From positions 1 through 29,293 of the IMG/VR virus record IMGVR_UViG_3300042389_000326: a stretch of 29,293 bases of DNA. The stretch is one strand, 5' to 3'. Origin of the DNA: a virus. Every line of letters begins with the position of its first letter. The first letter of the stretch is position 1. The translations under genes and the position numbers were made by a program. The notes below the pieces were generated by a model, which was not told the origin of the DNA, did not search any database, and worked only from the letters and a program-made list of their open reading frames with translations. Shown here piece by piece: positions 3,253 through 29,293 of this stretch.

Positions 3253-3780
3253 CTATTGTACCGGCAAAACACCAACAAAGTAGAGGTCACAAGAATCAGA
3301 ATTATAAACAAACCTATAAAAATCAAAAACACTAAAATCATAGTTTTCTAAAAAGTCACTCTCATCAAGATTCCGGTAATAATCCCACTCAACCGTAAAC
3401 GGCGAATCAGCCGGTGTAGTCCTACTCGTGCCATGTTCAGCCCTACCCGTAGAAGCACAAGTAAACACAACAAACTTACGCGACATCCTCACCATGTTGT
3501 CAAACGTTTCCAACCAGTACGGGTTATGTTCAAAACACTCAGCAGACACAGCCACATCAAAACTGTTATCTGCATACTCCAGCTCTTGACCCTGACCTAC
3601 AACATCAACACCAGGGCCTTCACCAACATCAACACCAACATATTTAGTGGCATCAAAAAAGTCTCTGACTGTGCCGTTAATGTTTAGTGATCCAATCTCC
3701 AACACTGATACGTCAAAAAACATTTCAGGAAACTCATCTTGCAGTTCTGTAAAAAACTCTCGCTGTTCAGGATGCGCCAT
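3253..3780 (-). CDS. Class I SAM-dependent methyltransferase
   Basis: A 175-aa methyltransferase. Motif I (VLEIGSLNINGT, residues about 26-37) and the acidic end of strand 2 (YVGVDVGEGPGVDVV, about 47-61) form the SAM pocket. A YADNSFDVAVSAECFEHN segment matches motifs III-IV of small-molecule or sugar methyltransferases. It probably methylates a sugar added by the two glycosyltransferases upstream, though protein targets are possible. The ATG at 3780 lies two bases after the preceding stop; an in-frame TTG 12 nt upstream is less likely. The last codons form GGTACAATAG, a variant of the recurrent TAGAATAG motif. Confidence 0.75.
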   Translation of the reverse strand: MAHPEQREFFTELQDEFPEMFFDVSVLEIGSLNINGTVRDFFDATKYVGVDVGEGPGVDVVGQGQELEYADNSFDVAVSAECFEHNPYWLETFDNMVRMSRKFVVFTCASTGRAEHGTSRTTPADSPFTVEWDYYRNLDESDFLENYDFSVFDFYRFVYNSDSCDLYFVGVLPVQ

Positions 3781-3782
3781 AA

Positions 3783-4430
3783 TCAATCCCAACTATTCAA
3801 ACGCCTACGCGCCAACATCCATGAGCCGTCAGACAAATCCTGTTCACGCTTCTTCATATTAAAATACGATTCATTCAAAACATAAGTGCCACGATTCTTA
3901 GACACAAACTCAGGATGAAAAACTGTGCCCTGCCCGTCATGATGATGCTCAACATCTGCACGATCAACCGGATAACCTAACATTTCACAACGCCACTCAT
4001 ACTCATCATCTTCAAAGTTAGCTGGATGTATAGCTTCATCAAACAAACCCACATTACCGATAAGTTCTTCACCGATAACAAAGAACTGCCAGAACGGGTC
4101 TTTATCTGACGTTACTAGCCGGTAAGGGTGTGAAACGTTATGCCAGTCTTCTAACGCGCCACGCCCAAAGATAGTGTCATCTGATGCGATAAACCAGCGG
4201 TCATCAAATGGGAAAGACTTTATTCCTAGATTCCATGACGATGCCACACCAAGATTAGAAGGCATATTCAGAACAGTTGTTTGTTGTACAACATCCGGTA
4301 CAACCAACCCTTCTAGACTGCCACCATTATCTATAACAAGTAAATGTTTTATCGGATAATCGAAATTGTTTACTAGCCGTTGCAACAAGTCATAACGGTT
4401 CAATGTGGGAATGATTAGGTTAGGGAGCAT
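3783..4430 (-). CDS. GT2-family glycosyltransferase (GT-A fold)
   Basis: A 215-aa nucleotide-sugar transferase. It begins LPNLIIPTLNRYDLLQRLV, the usual first strand and helix of GT2 enzymes. It continues with LLVIDNGGS, NMPSNLGVASSWNLGI (nucleotide and acceptor region), WFIASDDTIF (DxD-like metal site) and EDDEYEWRCEMLGY (catalytic acidic region). The ATG at 4430 lies inside the end of the upstream GT4 gene (11-nt overlap), indicating co-translation. The longer open frame upstream overlaps GT4 and lacks GT2-like sequence, so it was not used. Likely role: sugar transfer onto a virion protein, perhaps extending a sugar placed by the GT4 enzyme. Confidence 0.78.
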   Translation of the reverse strand: MLPNLIIPTLNRYDLLQRLVNNFDYPIKHLLVIDNGGSLEGLVVPDVVQQTTVLNMPSNLGVASSWNLGIKSFPFDDRWFIASDDTIFGRGALEDWHNVSHPYRLVTSDKDPFWQFFVIGEELIGNVGLFDEAIHPANFEDDEYEWRCEMLGYPVDRADVEHHHDGQGTVFHPEFVSKNRGTYVLNESYFNMKKREQDLSDGSWMLARRRLNSWD

Positions 4431-5610
4431 TAAAGTATTCTCTGAGCAGTGGCATCCAATACCAGTTCCACACAGTCTCAACATCAAACTGACGGGCGAA
4501 ATCAATAGAAGCCTGGCTCTTACCTCGTGGTGCTTCATAGGCAAGCTCTAGGGCGTTCACGATAGAACCAATGTTGGGGATGTTGTAGAACGCCTGTTGA
4601 GGTTCATCCCAGAACGGTTGACCATCTACAAGCCATGAGTCATCACCGGCAAGGTCTTGAGTGGCCGCCCAGTTAGAAGTAATAACCGAGGTGCCACACG
4701 CCTGAGCCTCAACCACAGGCACACCGAACCCTTCACCATAGCTAACCTGCAACATCACATCAGAAGCCGTATACACACCGGCAAGAAACTCATCAGGATA
4801 ACCAGTACGATTCACATCAGTATTTAGAATGCGCACAAACTCATCATTCAACCCACACGCCTTCAAAAGATTAGGGATATTGAAACCGCCAAAAGCATTA
4901 GAAGGCTCAGAATGAATATACAAATAAGCGTCAGGATGAGACTGCCTAAAAATACTAAACGCCATAAACTGTTCAGCCAAAGCCTTACGATGCACCAACC
5001 CGTTAGCCTTATTAGCAGACACCATAGACACCAAGAAAGCATCCTCAGGCACATCAAGATATTGCCTAGTAGGAACACCAAACACTTCAGCAGTAGGCTT
5101 CATAACCTTAGTATCAATAGCGTGAGGAATATAAACCGATTCAACACCAGCAGCCTCAAGCTGTCTCTGACCGTGAGGACTCATAGTAATAGGCGTCACG
5201 TTAGGCTTCAAAAGAAACTTCAACACCTTAGGTGGCAACGTCACATGATCGAGCGGAGTCCACGCAAAAATCTGACCGTCAAACTGCATATCATTGTAAA
5301 CCCACTGGTCATACAAAGTAACAACAGCATCCTTAATATCAGGATGTTTAGCCTTATGATCACCATGCCACACAGGAATAACATCATCACTATAAGGTTT
5401 AAAGCCCTTAGGGTAATGTGTAATCTTTCCGTAAGGTGTTTTAATCTCATTAATACGGCCCTCAAGCCCATAGTTAGACAAGTTAGCAACCTTCAAACCA
5501 TGCTTCACCATACGGTCAATCAGAAGCTTAGTCTGCACCCCGTAACCCGTAGGTGCATCATAAGAATTAGATGCTACCGATACGACACCGCGCAATTTCT
5601 CAACAGCCAT
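4420..5610 (-). CDS. GT4-family glycosyltransferase (GT-B fold)
   Basis: A 396-aa retaining glycosyltransferase. The N-terminal acceptor domain has the Gly-rich APTGYGVQTKLLID loop (residues 19-32). The linker has IPHAIDT (161-167, the common IPHGVD motif). The donor domain has EGFGVPVVEAQACG (293-306) with the E-x7-E pair E293/E301 intact. The ATG at 5610 has an early-type site (AAAGGGAAA) although the gene lies in the structural block, a hint that the sugar cluster has a different origin or timing. Upstream are a terminator, a hairpin and a possible promoter with an inverted repeat. It probably starts sugar decoration of a virion or host target. Confidence 0.85.
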   Translation of the reverse strand: MAVEKLRGVVSVASNSYDAPTGYGVQTKLLIDRMVKHGLKVANLSNYGLEGRINEIKTPYGKITHYPKGFKPYSDDVIPVWHGDHKAKHPDIKDAVVTLYDQWVYNDMQFDGQIFAWTPLDHVTLPPKVLKFLLKPNVTPITMSPHGQRQLEAAGVESVYIPHAIDTKVMKPTAEVFGVPTRQYLDVPEDAFLVSMVSANKANGLVHRKALAEQFMAFSIFRQSHPDAYLYIHSEPSNAFGGFNIPNLLKACGLNDEFVRILNTDVNRTGYPDEFLAGVYTASDVMLQVSYGEGFGVPVVEAQACGTSVITSNWAATQDLAGDDSWLVDGQPFWDEPQQAFYNIPNIGSIVNALELAYEAPRGKSQASIDFARQFDVETVWNWYWMPLLREYFNAP

Positions 5611-19450: not shown

Positions 19451-19882
19451 TCAATCGAGTAAATCCCCGTAAACGTCTTCAAGAATCGCCTGAGCCGTAT
19501 TCTCACTAATAGGCACACGGTCAACATCCGTTAGTAAAAACCAGCCATCACAATACTTCACAGGTATACGGGATAGTTTGTGGCGATCAGCAACCCAGCG
19601 TGGCACAGCCCAACCCAGTTCCACACATCGTTTAGCAAAATCAGCATCAGCAGTCTGCAACACATTGTGCCCACTACACATGGTGACAAGGGCTTCAGGG
19701 GCATCACCCAAAGCTGAACCGCCCATACCCTTAGTGCGCCGATGCTGCACAGTCAGACCGCCCACACACGGCCATTTGACAGCCTCAAACAAACCATCAG
19801 CCACACACAAGTGACCATCACGTTTAAACACTTCAGGGCGCGACTTATCTACTTGACGGCGTGACCGCTTACCAATACTCAT
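19451..19882 (-). CDS. HNH-type nuclease, 143 aa
   Basis: The core EVFKRDGHLCV, PCVGGLTVQHRRTKGMGGSA and EALVTMCSGHNVLQ matches the actinophage HNH variant in which H-R-x2-G-M-G-G replaces the classic DH. ATG 19882 overlaps the RHH gene stop (ATGA). The C-terminal third (WVADRHKLSRIPVKYCDGWF) resembles proteins that couple HNH with a wing-like extension. It probably nicks DNA in replication or recombination. It is embedded in the coupled operon, unlike the free-standing HNH at 20333. Confidence 0.75.
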   Translation of the reverse strand: MSIGKRSRRQVDKSRPEVFKRDGHLCVADGLFEAVKWPCVGGLTVQHRRTKGMGGSALGDAPEALVTMCSGHNVLQTADADFAKRCVELGWAVPRWVADRHKLSRIPVKYCDGWFLLTDVDRVPISENTAQAILEDVYGDLLD

Positions 19883-20016
19883 GACTCGTTCACAAACTCT
19901 ATAAGAGCTGTAACAATAACAGCAGTCAACGGGATACCCTCAGCCTCAGCCTTGAGTAAAGCCGGTTGCCAAATCTCATCAGCAACACGCACAGAACGCA
20001 ACGGTGTATTAGCCAT
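19879..20016 (-). CDS. Ribbon-helix-helix regulator, 45 aa
   Basis: The 45-aa protein reads as an RHH (Arc/CopG-like) domain: strand PLRSVRVADEIW, helix QPALLKAEAEGI, then PLTAVIVTALIEFVN. RHH dimers bind short inverted repeats. ATG 20016 overlaps the preceding stop (TAATG), and its stop overlaps the HNH gene. It is the second gene after the promoter at 20303-20330, which carries TGTA-TG-TACA, making it a candidate autoregulator. Confidence 0.7.
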   Translation of the reverse strand: MANTPLRSVRVADEIWQPALLKAEAEGIPLTAVIVTALIEFVNES

Positions 20017-20258
20017 TATGCTGCCACCTCAACCCAATGCCAATCAAAAGCACCACGAAACTCATCATTCACACGCAACCACTGCAAATGAGGATACTCG
20101 TTAATACTGTGAACAATGTACTGCAACATAGTGGGCGAAAGCTTCACCCCTGCAAGTTGTGTATCAATCACCAGGTCAAACAGATCGTCAGCATTGTCAA
20201 AGTCAACTTCTGCATCTAGTTCTTCTAGTTCAATAGCGATAGTTTTCATGATTCCCAT
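20016..20258 (-). CDS. Acidic hypothetical protein, 80 aa
   Basis: First gene of the second early unit. ATG 20258 has AGAAAGGGAAAC 4 nt upstream; a second ATG nine bases later is possible. Strongly acidic N-terminus (ELEELDAEVDFDNADDLFDL), then a helical and Trp-rich C-terminus (PHLQWLRVNDEFRGAFDWHW). No family recognised. It is coupled to the RHH gene (TAATG). An acidic partner next to a small basic-type regulator could be an inhibitor or a DNA mimic, but this is speculation. Confidence 0.65.
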   Translation of the reverse strand: MGIMKTIAIELEELDAEVDFDNADDLFDLVIDTQLAGVKLSPTMLQYIVHSINEYPHLQWLRVNDEFRGAFDWHWVEVAA

Positions 20259-20302: not shown

Positions 20303-20330
20303 AATATACACCTGTACATACACAAGTCAA
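20303..20330 (-). promoter_or_regulatory. Promoter with inverted repeat, second early unit (copy 2)
   Basis: Minus strand: TTGACT (20330-20325), 16-nt spacer, TATATT (20308-20303). The spacer contains TGTA-TG-TACA (20322-20313). It matches the plus-strand promoter at 23240-23267 at 22 of 28 positions, including 17 of the first 19. Transcription would start about 40 nt before ATG 20258. Confidence 0.7.
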
Positions 20331-20332
20331 GT

Positions 20333-20926
20333 TTATTTAGAAACTTTTTTTAAATAGATTCTAAACTCAATCCAAAGTTTATTGTTCTTAGAATAATTAC
20401 AAGTAGCACATAAAGGCTGAAGATTACCCTCACTGTTATTGCCACCCCTAGAAATAGGAACAACATGATCAATGTGAATATTTTTAGTAGAACCACAAGC
20501 ATTACAAGGCTGACTCTTTAACTTGCGCAAATACTTTTCAGTAATAACAAAATCTTGAGTACCTGCAAGCCAAACACGTCTACGCATGTTATATTCAGCT
20601 ATTTTTAACGGATTAGTTTTTTGCCAATTCTTTTGATAATTCTTTTTATAATCCGGATTTTTAAGCTGCCATCTTTTGCTGTTGACTCTTACCTTGTCAG
20701 GATTATTCTTTTGCCACTTTTGTTTTTCAGCTGCAATATATTCAGGATTAGCCAAACGCCAATTTTTATTTCTTTTTAAAATTACGTCTTTATTGTTGTC
20801 ATAATTTTTTTTATTAACAGCAGCCTGACAACTCCGGCACTCTGATCTATAACCATCTTTCATAGATGTTTTTACGTTAAACAAATCAAATGGTTTTAGC
20901 TCTTTACATTTGCTACACTGTTTCAC
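20333..20926 (-). CDS. Free-standing HNH homing-type endonuclease with WxxNP repeats
   Basis: A 197-aa protein. A zinc ribbon (C4, C7, C30, C33) is followed by a basic repeat region (about 45-115) with units such as NWRLANPEYIAAEKQKW and KRWQLKNPDYKKNYQKNW. The HNH core has C141/C144, DH at 153-154 (IHIDHVVPISRGG), and C173/C176. The repeats resemble DNA-reading arms of phage homing endonucleases. It is visibly AT-richer and more Lys/Asn-rich than its neighbours, starts at GTG with its own AGGAG site, and ends 2 nt before a promoter. All this suggests later insertion as a mobile gene. Confidence 0.85.
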   Translation of the reverse strand: MKQCSKCKELKPFDLFNVKTSMKDGYRSECRSCQAAVNKKNYDNNKDVILKRNKNWRLANPEYIAAEKQKWQKNNPDKVRVNSKRWQLKNPDYKKNYQKNWQKTNPLKIAEYNMRRRVWLAGTQDFVITEKYLRKLKSQPCNACGSTKNIHIDHVVPISRGGNNSEGNLQPLCATCNYSKNNKLWIEFRIYLKKVSK

Positions 20927-20948
20927 ATCGGACTCCTATTCCGGTCAT

Positions 20949-20978
20949 GCCCCAGGATGTTGATAGCATCGCTGGGGT
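20949..20978. other. Hairpin between WhiB and HNH genes
   Basis: CCCCAG-GATG (20950-20959) pairs with CATC-G-CTGGGG (20967-20977, one bulge) around loop TTGATAG. It resembles the hairpin at 19399-19430 (GATG...CATC, similar loop). No T-run follows on the minus strand. It could be a processing site or attenuator marking the edge of the inserted HNH gene. Confidence 0.5.
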
Positions 20979-20987
20979 ACTTCCATT

Positions 20988-21221
20988 TTAGCGTCTTTTT
21001 GCTTTACGTTTCAGGAGCTTTCTTTCAGAGCTGGTCAATCCACCCCATATGCCTAAATCTTCGTTATTAGCCAACGCATACGCCAAACACTCATCAATCA
21101 CAGGGCACTTCTTACAAATCCGGCGAGCCTCAGCGTTCACCTCATGCAACGAGCCTTCAGGAAACCACAGGTCAGGTGACGATTGCGCACACAGGGCTTC
21201 ACGCATCCACAACCTATCCAT
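20988..21221 (-). CDS. whiB: WhiB-family iron-sulfur transcription factor
   Basis: A 77-aa WhiB protein. Four cluster cysteines are present: C11, and C36-KK-C39-PVIDE-C45. The GIWGG turn is at 57-61, followed by the basic DNA-binding tail (RKLLKRKAKRR). WhiB proteins bind host sigma factor and DNA; phage versions can block host regulators or alter promoter choice. It may switch early to late transcription, which would fit the weak -10 boxes before late genes. ATG 21221 overlaps the upstream stop (TAATG). This is the clearest host indicator: WhiB is restricted to Actinobacteria and their phages. Confidence 0.93.
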   Translation of the reverse strand: MDRLWMREALCAQSSPDLWFPEGSLHEVNAEARRICKKCPVIDECLAYALANNEDLGIWGGLTSSERKLLKRKAKRR

Positions 21222-21544
21222 TACGCACCCTCAAGCTGAATGCTTTTCAGTGTCGCCATCAGGCGCATCTGCTGCAACTCCAAACCCTTAGCCTTAGCCC
21301 TAGCCCTGTTATAAGAAGCACGAGCAATCACAGCACCGTCACGCGCCTCAATCGCACGCTCACGAGCAATAGCCTTACGATCTTCGATATTCCCTTCAGC
21401 CGTCAGGTATGCCTTATCCATTACAGACTGTGCTTGCAGTTCAGCACGTTCAGCCTCAACCTCAAGAGTCTGAATGGCATCGGCAGCCTTGTAAAGCTCA
21501 CGCCCAACCTGAGTCAGCTCAAACCGTATTTCTTCAGGTGTCAT
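21221..21544 (-). CDS. Helical coiled-coil protein, 107 aa
   Basis: Almost wholly alpha-helical, Ala/Glu/Arg/Gln-rich (AADAIQTLEVEAERAELQAQ and ARERAIEARDGAVIARASY), so a long coiled-coil is likely. ATG 21544 overlaps the annealing-protein stop (ATGA), with AAAGGTGAGC upstream, and the stop overlaps WhiB. No family recognised. Context suggests a partner in recombination. Confidence 0.65.
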   Translation of the reverse strand: MTPEEIRFELTQVGRELYKAADAIQTLEVEAERAELQAQSVMDKAYLTAEGNIEDRKAIARERAIEARDGAVIARASYNRARAKAKGLELQQMRLMATLKSIQLEGA

Positions 21545-22053
21545 GCCAGCTCACCTTTACGCTTAGTCACAACATCCTGCACAGTCTTAGAGTATCCACC
21601 AGCAACAGCATCAGCCCAGAGTGACTTTAGTTCATCAAGGGTAGTAGCAGACTCCACAAGGGCAACGAAATCATCCGGTACAGGCACAGCAGCCTTCTGA
21701 GGTGACTTACCCCGCGCCACCTTCTCCATCTCCTCACGAGAAGGGCCAACACCACCCAAAGCCCACCTAAGCGCACGACCCAACGCTGACGTATTAGCAT
21801 TCTCTAAAGCACTGGTCTTATTAGCCATACCAACACCATCAACCTCAAACGCCCACTCAGTAGCCTTAGGCAAACTTAAAGCCTGATCACCAGCATTCAA
21901 ATACACACGAGCCTCAACCACCCAAGTAGCCTGAGCGCGGTCATTCTCTGTAGTGTGATTAATAATCTCACAACGTAAATCAGGATACTGCTCTAAAGCC
22001 CTAGCGTGACGTTGCTCAACAGTCTCATAATTTTCTAAATTGAAATTTGCCAT
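21541..22053 (-). CDS. Putative single-strand annealing protein (ERF/Sak-like)
   Basis: A 170-aa protein. The segment TSALENANTSALGRALRWAL (80-99) resembles the E-T-S-A-x-G-R-A-L motif of ERF/Rad52-like phage recombinases, preceded by strands with WVVEARVYL and a Gly-rich turn. A helical C-terminal domain (SATTLDELKSLWADAVAGG) is common in these proteins. Together with the exonuclease two genes upstream it forms a Red-like pair for annealing and end repair. ATG 22053 has AGAAAGGGAAAC upstream, inside the preceding small gene. The exact recombinase family cannot be set by eye. Confidence 0.65.
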   Translation of the reverse strand: MANFNLENYETVEQRHARALEQYPDLRCEIINHTTENDRAQATWVVEARVYLNAGDQALSLPKATEWAFEVDGVGMANKTSALENANTSALGRALRWALGGVGPSREEMEKVARGKSPQKAAVPVPDDFVALVESATTLDELKSLWADAVAGGYSKTVQDVVTKRKGELA

Positions 22054-22136
22054 TAGTTGTTTCCCTTTCTTCTGTTTGCTTTACGATTCTTACGGCGCAC
22101 AGCCGCCTTCGCCTTATGTGTAGGCCATATAACCAT
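22053..22136 (-). CDS. 27-aa basic peptide
   Basis: ATG 22136 overlaps the exonuclease stop (TAATG) and has GAAAGGGAAC 4 nt upstream. The peptide is strongly basic (KAKAAVRRKNRKANRRKGNN) and ends by overlapping the annealing-protein ATG (TAATG). It may bind nucleic acid, or it may mainly be a coupling leader that carries the next ribosome-binding site. Small size limits certainty. Confidence 0.5.
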   Translation of the reverse strand: MVIWPTHKAKAAVRRKNRKANRRKGNN

Positions 22137-22738
22137 TACTGTTCCCTTTCATTCTTAGAACGCTCAAAATATATTGCGTGTTCCTGTACCTTCTCAGCCG
22201 TCTTAATCAGCTCAGAAATTATTTCCTCATCACGTTCCACAACCTGACATTCAACATCAAAGCCTGGAACGAAACCTTCAGGGCCTTCCAGTCTCAGCTC
22301 ATACGCAAACACACACTGTTTAGCACCAGTAACATAAAGTTGCCACTGCACCTGTCGCATATAGTTAGCCGGAATACGGTCTAAATTTTTACCGCTAGTC
22401 TTGTACTCCCCAATCATGGTGTGATCTAGCGACAAACCGTCAGGGGTAGCCATCTGCCACTCATTACCTGCACCATCAGCACACAGCAACCAGTCATTAG
22501 GTAATATCCCGTAACGCTCTTTCACAACGTGCGCAATATACGCCTCACGCTCAACACCCCAATCCATAAACCCGTTAGGTTCAACAGGCGTAGGATTCTC
22601 AATCTGAGCCAGAACCTCTTTCATGCCAGCAGGGGTAGAAGCCTTAGCAACCTGTGTAGCAGTCACGCCACGGTCACGCGCTGCAAGCCACAAATCTTTA
22701 GTCTGGCTAGAAACAATAAAGCGTTCAACATCAATCAC
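22136..22738 (-). CDS. YqaJ/lambda-exonuclease family recombination nuclease
   Basis: A 200-aa PD-(D/E)XK exonuclease. Key features: RGVTATQVAKA near residue 23, GVEREAYIA (61-69), ATPDGL with D100, GEYKT with E111/K113, and QVQWQLYVTGAK (129-140), the full YqaJ signature. It should resect DNA ends to feed the annealing protein. The start is GTG 22738, overlapping the upstream stop. Length is typical for the family. Confidence 0.88.
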   Translation of the reverse strand: MIDVERFIVSSQTKDLWLAARDRGVTATQVAKASTPAGMKEVLAQIENPTPVEPNGFMDWGVEREAYIAHVVKERYGILPNDWLLCADGAGNEWQMATPDGLSLDHTMIGEYKTSGKNLDRIPANYMRQVQWQLYVTGAKQCVFAYELRLEGPEGFVPGFDVECQVVERDEEIISELIKTAEKVQEHAIYFERSKNEREQ

Positions 22739-23157
22739 AGCTCAAACACTTCCTTAGCAGAATCAACATGACGGGTATTAGGCGAACCACCCTGCAACAA
22801 CACCGTGAAAGTCTCCAACGTCATAGTCACATACTGTTCAGCACCCTTATTAGAACCATGCTTCTTATGCACCACAACACCAGCCACAGTCGCACCCGTA
22901 ACTTCATCATCGTTTTGACGTTCAACCTCAGCCTCACGAATCCATTGAGGCAGATTATCTCGTGCAGTGTTTTTGCATTCCACAACAACACAACCACCAG
23001 CCACAGTGCGAACGTTAGCAATATCACCCCGATCCTTCTTACCCATCCTAGGCATACGGGCAATACGAATATCTGCCAGTTTCATTGCAAGATATTCTGC
23101 AACGAGTGTTTCAAAGCTTGTACCAGCCTTTTTAGCTGATGCGCGATTACGTGTCAT
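22735..23157 (-). CDS. PD-(D/E)XK nuclease (Holliday-junction-resolvase-like)
   Basis: The 140-aa first gene of the early operon. Active-site pattern E16 (TSFETLVAEYL), D45 (KKDRGDIANV) and E60-C-K62 (VVVECKN) matches RecB/Hjc-type nucleases, which in actinophages are often called Holliday junction resolvases. ATG 23157 has AAAGGGAAAA about 6 nt upstream and lies about 18 nt after the predicted transcription start. A longer open frame to 23190 overlaps the promoter and was rejected. Product specificity is inferred. Confidence 0.75.
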   Translation of the reverse strand: MTRNRASAKKAGTSFETLVAEYLAMKLADIRIARMPRMGKKDRGDIANVRTVAGGCVVVECKNTARDNLPQWIREAEVERQNDDEVTGATVAGVVVHKKHGSNKGAEQYVTMTLETFTVLLQGGSPNTRHVDSAKEVFEL

Positions 23158-23181
23158 TAGTTTTCCCTTTCGACATCTAAC

Positions 23182-23210
23182 ACTATACATAGGGGTTATG
23201 ACATTGCCAA
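23182..23210 (-). promoter_or_regulatory. Main early promoter
   Basis: Minus strand: TTGGCA (23210-23205), 17-nt spacer, TATAGT (23187-23182). Both boxes are one base from the sigma-70 consensus or nearly so, the best in the window. It faces the early operon, with a short leader and the AAAGGGAAA site before ATG 23157. Confidence 0.75.
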
Positions 23211-23239
23211 AACTTTTTTTAATTATTTTGCAAATAAAC

Positions 23240-23267
23240 TTGACTTCTGTATTTACAGCAGTAAACT
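23240..23267 (+). promoter_or_regulatory. Promoter with inverted repeat, plus-strand cassette (copy 1)
   Basis: TTGACT (23240-23245), 16-nt spacer, TAAACT (23262-23267). The spacer holds CTGTA-TT-TACAG (23247-23258), followed directly by CAGT-AA-ACTG (23259-23268). It is a near copy of the promoter at 20303-20330 (22 of 28 positions). The inverted repeats lie where a repressor would block polymerase. Confidence 0.7.
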
Positions 23268-23313
23268 GAATACATAAGCAAGGGCAACCGCCCGAAGAAA
23301 AGGAGAAACCAAA

Positions 23314-23514
23314 ATGGAAACTGCAAACACCACCTACACAATCGGAACTTCACGCGCTGGAACAATCCACCGTTCAGCTAAGTCAGCCCCATACCAGGCA
23401 GAATGCATGTTTGGTTCTTATGGCCGAGGCAAAATCGCAACACTACGCACAGTAGAAAGTGGCACAAACCCAACCGGACTTCTTTGCCAGAAGTGCTTTG
23501 GAAAGGAAAACTAA
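23314..23514 (+). CDS. Small Cys-containing protein, 66 aa
   Basis: First of three plus-strand genes. ATG 23314 has AAGGAG 9 nt upstream, about 40 nt after the promoter. Thr/Ser-rich N-terminus (TANTTYTIGTSRAGTIHRSA), then PYQAECMFGSYGRGK and a C-terminal LLCQKCFGKEN. C31, C58 and C61 with a nearby His could hold a zinc ion. No family recognised. The stop overlaps the next ATG (TAATG). Confidence 0.7.
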   Translation: METANTTYTIGTSRAGTIHRSAKSAPYQAECMFGSYGRGKIATLRTVESGTNPTGLLCQKCFGKEN

Positions 23515-23675
23515 TGGAAAACGAACTAGAACAACCTAAAGCATGGAACGAATACAAGCAGGTTTACGGAACAACCAAACCACGCCTCTCAGATAACTCA
23601 CTAGCGATGGGCGGCATAGTACTTGCCGTAATCGTAACCTTCCTCACCGTCTTAGCGTTGGTGGTGTCACTATGA
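23514..23675 (+). CDS. Small single-pass membrane protein, 53 aa
   Basis: An acidic/polar N-terminus (ENELEQPKAWNEYKQVYGTT) precedes one membrane helix (about 33-53, GGIVLAVIVTFLTVLALVVS). ATG 23514 has GGAAAGGAAAA upstream and overlaps the upstream stop. A longer open frame starting at 23403 overlaps the first gene and was rejected. Topology suggests a cytoplasmic N-terminus. Possible exclusion or membrane-takeover protein; inference only. Confidence 0.7.
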   Translation: MENELEQPKAWNEYKQVYGTTKPRLSDNSLAMGGIVLAVIVTFLTVLALVVSL

Positions 23676-23803
23676 GCGCACTATTCATCACCCTATGCCT
23701 CACAACAGCCACACAATCAATCCTGTGGGCTTTTAACGGCATCACCCTACTGCTAGTAATCGCCACTGCTATAACCGGCTGGAAAGCATACAAGCAAGCC
23801 TGA
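23672..23803 (+). CDS. Small membrane protein, 43 aa
   Basis: ATG 23672 overlaps the preceding stop (ATGA). Two hydrophobic stretches (SALFITLCLTTATQSILW and GITLLLVIATAITGW) and a short basic tail (KAYKQA). It completes the plus-strand cassette and is followed 9 nt later by a GC-rich hairpin. No family recognised. Confidence 0.65.
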   Translation: MSALFITLCLTTATQSILWAFNGITLLLVIATAITGWKAYKQA

Positions 23804-23936: not shown

Positions 23937-23965
23937 AAACCCCTCACAGCAATAATGAGGGGTTT
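23937..23965. terminator. Bidirectional terminator between convergent units
   Basis: AAACCCCTCA (23937-23946) pairs perfectly with TGAGGGGTTT (23956-23965) around a 9-nt loop. On the minus strand it is followed by TTTTCTTAT, on the plus strand by TTTAACTT. It closes the late operon and the plus-strand cassette. A second hairpin (ACCCTAG/CTAGGGT, 23975-24008) lies just before it for the late transcript. Confidence 0.85.
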
Positions 23966-28462: not shown

Positions 28463-29293
28463 TTACACCTTAGCGAATACTGCACCAGAAGTGCGCTCAT
28501 AACGGCGAATAGCGTTCACAATCTGCTCACCTACCCCAGCACCGTCAGTACCCATACCAGCATTCACAACAATGTTTACAGTAGCACCGCCACGCTTACC
28601 CACAACATCATCAAAACGGTCAAGAGGAATAATAGCCTCAGGGCCAGCCTCACCAACAAGAGCAGGAGTAGGGCCAGTAACAATACCACCCTTAGCAAAC
28701 GGTGTAAGAACGTTACCATCACGGTTTATAGAACCATCACGGTTATATGTAAGACCAGAAGGTTTAATACTTGTACCGTTAATCCAACGAATCAAATCAG
28801 CAACAGCCTGTAAACCAGAAGTCAACGGGCTTAAAGCCCTACCAATAGCCCCCAAAATAGATGTTACAACAGCACCAAACGGCCCCATTTCTTTTTCAAT
28901 AGTTTCCATAAAACCATTAAAACCCTCAAGAAGTTTATTAATACCGCCAACAATAACTGCAATATCTTTCCAACTAGAATATAAATCTTCACTTTCAGAA
29001 TTAATATCAGGCAGAGTTAAAGAAATAGTTTCAAGCAAACCGCCCATAATATCTAAAAGCGGATTCAAGCCAGGTAACAAATCAATCATCAACCTATTAA
29101 AGTTTGTTATAACAGGTTCAAGGCGTGGCAACATGTTAGACAAAGTGTCAGACATAGTAGCCAAGAAAGTTTGAAACTCAGGATCACTAACAAACTTATC
29201 AATCATGTTCTGAATGATAGGGATAACTTCTTCAAAAGCTGGAAGCAAAGAAGCACCAATAGTTTCTTTAAGATTTCCAAAAATAACGTCTAA
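28463..29293 (-). CDS. Tape measure protein, C-terminal part
   Basis: Remainder of the 499-aa tape measure protein, in frame with the segment ending at position 1 (29167-29293 duplicates 1-127). It is helical and has a hydrophobic central stretch. Near the C-terminus it carries GGIVTGPTPALVGEAGPEAI, a motif widely conserved at the end of phage tape measures, followed by a Gly/Val-rich stretch and a basic helix. The stop is 3 nt before the next gene's ATG. An apparent internal start at 29248 is only an in-frame Met, because the reading frame is open upstream across the circular join. Confidence 0.9.
   Translation of the reverse strand, partial: LDVIFGNLKETIGASLLPAFEEVIPIIQNMIDKFVSDPEFQTFLATMSDTLSNMLPRLEPVITNFNRLMIDLLPGLNPLLDIMGGLLETISLTLPDINSESEDLYSSWKDIAVIVGGINKLLEGFNGFMETIEKEMGPFGAVVTSILGAIGRALSPLTSGLQAVADLIRWINGTSIKPSGLTYNRDGSINRDGNVLTPFAKGGIVTGPTPALVGEAGPEAIIPLDRFDDVVGKRGGATVNIVVNAGMGTDGAGVGEQIVNAIRRYERTSGAVFAKV
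29167..29293. repeat. Terminal direct repeat, right copy
   Basis: Exact second copy of bases 1-127. Position 29167 is the same genomic base as position 1. It should be removed once when the genome is closed. Confidence 0.95.

Follow-up and report, generated by a model that had tools for sequence, protein, structure and literature searches.

The Arc repressor of phage P22 is a ribbon-helix-helix (RHH) protein of 53 residues whose 21-bp operator offers two half-sites to two dimers within one regulatory region. CopG and omega are minimal RHH repressors of their own promoters; they serve in plasmid copy-number and maintenance control and use other operator sequences. Many actinophages encode a protein family whose annotation goes no further than "Arc-like repressor"; here we propose a concrete DNA target for it and, with that, what it does. 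This proposal rests on the co-occurrence of gene and site, not on annotation.

Two promoter-like elements and their palindrome

The window, by which we mean the whole stretch of 29,293 bases that was analyzed, is probably a complete genome, because a 127-base direct repeat forms its termini (1-127 and 29167-29293). Its terminase is most similar to the one encoded by Pontimonas phage phiPsal1 (57% identity), and the minus strand holds the majority of the genes. In the early region, a RusA-like resolvase (23157 or 23190) comes first, then a RecE/YqaJ-type exonuclease, WhiB, an HNH gene and g80; these are followed by the 45-aa RHH gene, another HNH gene, and the genes of a replication initiation protein and a DnaB-like helicase. 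Elsewhere, positions 3253-5610, between the capsid and the neck/tail genes, hold glycosyltransferase- and methyltransferase-like genes, and the phiPsal1 annotation has such genes in the corresponding position. The features of the early region and of the plus-strand cassette are as follows.

19879-20016, minus strand: RHH gene (45 aa), the proposed repressor, second gene after the minus-strand promoter copy
20016-20258, minus strand: g80, which opens the RHH operon and accompanies RHH in the window's phage family
20303-20330, minus strand: promoter-like element of the g80-RHH operon, TTGACT-16-TATATT, sequence TTGACTTGTGTATGTACAGGTGTATATT
20313-20322, read on the minus strand: putative operator TGTA-TG-TACA, between -35 and -10 of the g80-RHH promoter
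20331-20338, minus strand: AAATAAAC block, identical upstream of both promoters, containing the HNH stop codon
20333-20926: HNH endonuclease gene immediately ahead of the RHH promoter, its stop codon within the shared AAATAAAC block
23240-23267, plus strand: promoter-like element of the cassette, TTGACT-16-TAAACT, sequence TTGACTTCTGTATTTACAGCAGTAAACT
23248-23257: putative operator TGTA-TT-TACA, between -35 and -10 of the cassette promoter
23314-23514, plus strand: cassette gene 1 (66 aa)
23514-23675, plus strand: cassette gene 2 (53 aa), a probable small membrane protein kept in relatives
23672-23803, plus strand: cassette gene 3 (43 aa), a probable small membrane protein kept in relatives
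23937-23965: terminator-like hairpin behind the cassette, assigned by the scan to the minus strand, i.e., serving genes from the opposite side

The sequence-only reading had described two near-identical promoters of equal spacing, each with a TGTA-NN-TACA inverted repeat between -35 and -10, and both parts of this description proved correct: the two sequences agree at 22 of their 28 positions, both have the 16-nt spacing, and the repeat is present in each. The 28-mer match alone is moderately unusual, as 22 or more matches were reached in 1 of 60 dinucleotide shuffles. The identity runs 8 bases further upstream, however, through AAATAAAC, giving 30 of 36 positions, whereas the best 36-mer pair in the 60 shuffles reached 25. 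When up to 3 mismatches were allowed, the core 19-mer TTGACTTSTGTATKTACAG matched the window at these two places only (0.05 expected), and a third copy was not found. The palindrome TGTANNTACA by itself was seen twice versus 0.72 expected; its count is thus not significant, and we rejected it as evidence on its own. The combination TTGAC-N0-8-TGTANNTACA was seen twice versus 0.017 expected.

The likeness of the two promoters takes in their flanks, and one may derive from the other, so we do not treat them as two independent observations. That one was copied onto the other is suggested by the window RHH promoter, which is closer to the cassette promoter of a relative (L005) than to the RHH promoters of two others (L009 and L047). 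The HNH gene at 20333-20926 looks mobile, because related HNH genes lie elsewhere in L008 and L047. An alternative reading is that a single constitutive phage promoter module was duplicated here, the palindrome in it being accidental and read by no phage protein. The extension of the likeness to the upstream AAATAAAC, the -35 and start-site elements common to related promoters, and the nonsignificant palindrome count all fit such a module; the comparative data below make it quite unlikely.

We note three further elements close to these promoters. The resolvase-exonuclease operon has a promoter-like TTGGCA-17-TATAGT (23210-23182, minus strand), near the cassette promoter and without the palindrome. 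The cassette leader (23271-23313) contains, ahead of the ribosome site, ATACATAAGCAAGGGC-N-GCCCGAAG, which can fold into a small hairpin; L005 and L047 have a similar leader. ATACAT also lies 3′ of the promoter in the unrelated L016 and is perhaps a second half-site.

The 45-residue RHH protein

The second gene after the minus-strand promoter copy (20016-19879) had been read as a 45-aa RHH protein, and the profile searches agreed, placing it with Arc-like proteins. It matched PHROG 6506, "Arc-like repressor," with an E-value of 1.9e-9, and had no Pfam match; PDB profiles gave weak matches to AvtR, omega and Arc, the last of these marginal. In an AlphaFold model (mean pLDDT of 88), helices at residues 13-26 and 30-44 take up the RHH arrangement. 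The N-terminal strand was unassigned in this monomer model, from which its dimer partner is absent. The top Foldseek match was the Arc-operator complex (1par; TM score, 0.67), with the weak E-value that follows from so short a chain. A P-L-R-x-x-R stretch, conserved in our first alignment, would sit where the DNA-contacting strand is expected, a placement that we presume from comparison with known RHH proteins. A fold of ~45 residues, the profile match and a short palindromic site in the gene's own promoter are together what is found for RHH proteins of the Arc/MetJ type. We also considered a CI/Cro-type immunity repressor and rejected it, as that class has a helix-turn-helix and both family and fold here are RHH.

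RHH proteins also serve as antitoxins, and the protein could in principle be one, with its neighbor as the toxin and the palindrome as the usual antitoxin operator. Although the overlapping two-gene layout, autoregulation and the presence of RHH antitoxins among the weaker structural matches suit this reading, the protein stops at residue 45, right after helix 2, and has no room for a toxin-binding tail. In addition, a conserved toxin partner was not found, the neighboring genes being mostly unrelated across phage groups, and a second promoter appears to be coregulated. We regard an antitoxin role as very unlikely.

Occurrence of the site with RHH genes in other phages

The queries used to find relatives were the exonuclease, cassette gene 2, an alignment of two RHH sequences and DNA motifs; a search for relatives with the single protein HNH143 found none. 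Phages and contigs are given below by our L numbers. The sequence-only reading had named co-conservation of repeat and RHH gene in related phages as a check, and it held in L006, L009, L047 and L051, with mycobacteriophage Philonius as a partial exception. In each of the four, the RHH gene is kept and TGTANNTACA or a one-base variant of it is found at both the cassette promoter and the RHH-side promoter. In L047, TGTATATACA is present both in the promoter of the cassette (4099) and in the one preceding the g80-RHH genes (7680); L009 combines TGTATTTACA at its cassette with TGTATATACA before the RHH-bearing operon; and L006 has an exact TGTATATACA at the cassette and the variant TGTCATTACA on the RHH side. 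L051 carries TGTTATTACA at three promoters, two on the RHH side and, with the site in the opposite orientation, one at the cassette, and its RHH protein deviates in the strand (PIRSFRI). At their cassettes, L005 and L008 have TGTATGTACA and TGTCATTACA, and both contigs end before the RHH gene. In Philonius (L024: 1501-1662), the RHH gene lacks the site, the front genes and promoter of the operon are missing, and the gene overlaps the end of a methyltransferase gene; it is apparently a remnant.

The position of the site relative to the promoter shifts among these phages, from the spacer in the window, L005 and L008 to the region over -10/+1 in L006, L009 and L047, yet the site is kept, as expected of an operator conserved for its own sake. 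In L006, L009 and L047, the site overlaps a common -10/start-site module, TANTGT-NN-ATACATAAGC, which adds likeness for promoter reasons. Seven exact sites occur in 77.7 kb of RHH-positive members, all in promoters, versus 3 in 452 kb of RHH-negative relatives and none in 31 kb of phiPsal1. L049, L050, L052, L053 and L056 have the same early genes and are WhiB positive and RHH negative; we found no promoter sites in them, and the single exact match in L053 falls within an apparent coding stretch. Thus, promoters of RHH-negative relatives lack the palindrome and those of RHH-positive relatives keep it while it shifts against -35 and -10, both of which argue against an accidental passenger of a constitutive promoter module.

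The nearby WhiB gene raises the question of whether the phage WhiB protein, or else a host factor, reads the palindrome. We rejected WhiB as the reader, given that the WhiB-positive, RHH-negative L049, L052, L053 and L056 have no promoter sites. The site moreover follows RHH across several host genera, and another reader of either kind is exceedingly improbable.

The pairing extends to distant RHH homologues, for which a GTATATAC-type site was found at the promoter of their own operon in several mycobacteriophage groups, M. abscessus prophages, an Arthrobacter phage and unrelated metagenomic phages. In mycobacteriophages of several genera and the M. abscessus prophages, two GTATRTAC sites, 12 bp apart, lie on the core promoter of the RHH operon. 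Whole-genome scans of Majeke, prophi104-2, prophiT46-2, DotProduct, Madiba, Kenuha5 and Babsiella showed this tandem pair to be their only GTATATAC/GTATGTAC sites. Arthrobacter phage MrSmee has one site (TTGACTACAGTGTATATACACC), heading an operon with RHH as its final gene, and a prophage-like locus of Mycobacteroides franklinii has GGTATATACC twice. An exact TTGACTTNTGTATNTACAG was present in one IMG/VR contig only, a 42-kb phage that is unrelated apart from an RHH homologue (44% identity) located 435 nt downstream of the site. The site varies in its outer base (T, G or C), and by eye we saw no simple link between it and the RHH strand sequence. This site was absent at the distant RHH proteins of L036, L037 and Getalong. 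Separately, a metagenomic viral contig (L343) encodes three RHH paralogues of this family (3952, 7665 and 12169) and has the motif close upstream of one only.

We also ran the search in reverse, scanning by DNA motif and blind to RHH; each scan covered at least 120 loci, so that the counts are samples. Among the matches listed for the single-site motif TTGACNNNTGTATATACA, 9 of 12 RHH genes were on the same strand and no more than 1.2 kb downstream (~1.0 expected; 9 distinct clusters by sequence). For the tandem motif, all 18 of the 18 RHH genes among the matches listed were so placed (~1.6 expected; 5 clusters). The return of RHH genes by motif-first scans and the marking of RHH operons by the palindrome in phages with unrelated promoters and hosts are likewise at odds with a constitutive module.

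The genes around the pair vary. Operon partners change between phages while RHH and site persist, and g80 is absent from the pairing in the mycobacteriophages and L016. In the cassette, the position of gene 1 is a variable slot, with unrelated proteins in L005, L006 and L008, and genes 2 and 3 are conserved. Given this variation in the operon partner and in cassette gene 1, the constant part would be the repressor together with the site that it reads, whereas the genes under its control would be exchangeable.

Proposed regulation and comparison with known repressors

Taken together, these data suggest that the RHH protein, with its 45 residues, works as a minimal repressor of the Arc-like type, acting through the palindrome on its own operon and on the cassette, which we consider the best explanation and a highly probable one. 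The small circuit proposed earlier, in which the protein represses its own unit and the three-gene plus-strand cassette, thus gains comparative support from a site that tracks the RHH gene. An RHH dimer would bind TGTA-NN-TACA, and with this site within the g80-RHH promoter the protein would limit its own synthesis. From the gene order, it would probably also limit part of the transcription into the downstream replication genes. The cassette promoter has its site in the corresponding position, so the cassette would be turned down as RHH accumulates. Repression is likely at both promoters because RNA polymerase would be kept out by a dimer sitting over -10 or in the spacer between -35 and -10; that the effect is repression rather than activation, and its timing during infection, we infer.

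Some RHH proteins can activate, and the protein, once bound to the site, might raise transcription or form a timing switch with g80 instead of simply repressing. In the window family g80 is always found with RHH, and the two might for that reason form a joint complex there. Sites that would block polymerase, and the pairing of RHH and site in mycobacteriophages and L016 without g80, speak against this alternative, which we judge quite unlikely.

If repression by RHH is right, it shows a way in which a phage couples an accessory cassette of variable content to the operon that precedes the replication genes. More tentatively, tail-less RHH repressors of 45 to 50 aa may move between actinophages with a near-identical operator, controlling exchangeable cargo, and might then act on the promoters of another phage or prophage in one cell; we think this possible but rather doubtful. 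As the target is short and conserved, one type of gel shift would serve many phages at once.

In literature searches on RHH repressors of mycobacteriophages and actinophages, we found no account of this operator or of its use at two promoters, and papers screened for ribbon proteins named none. The kind of system, Arc/CopG-like, is already known; the operator family and the two-promoter arrangement are without description in the literature searched. CopG and omega resemble the window protein by structural or profile matches. Arc, the top structural match, is likewise a small phage RHH protein, but sequence similarity to it is marginal (profile E-value of 0.2), and the 10-bp palindrome of the window recurs at two separate promoters. 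Closest is the mycobacteriophage family PHROG 6506, into which the profile places the window protein and with which it shares the GTATATAC core at the operon promoter; the mycobacteriophages have tandem pairs of sites at one operon, whereas in the window family each of two promoters carries a single site.
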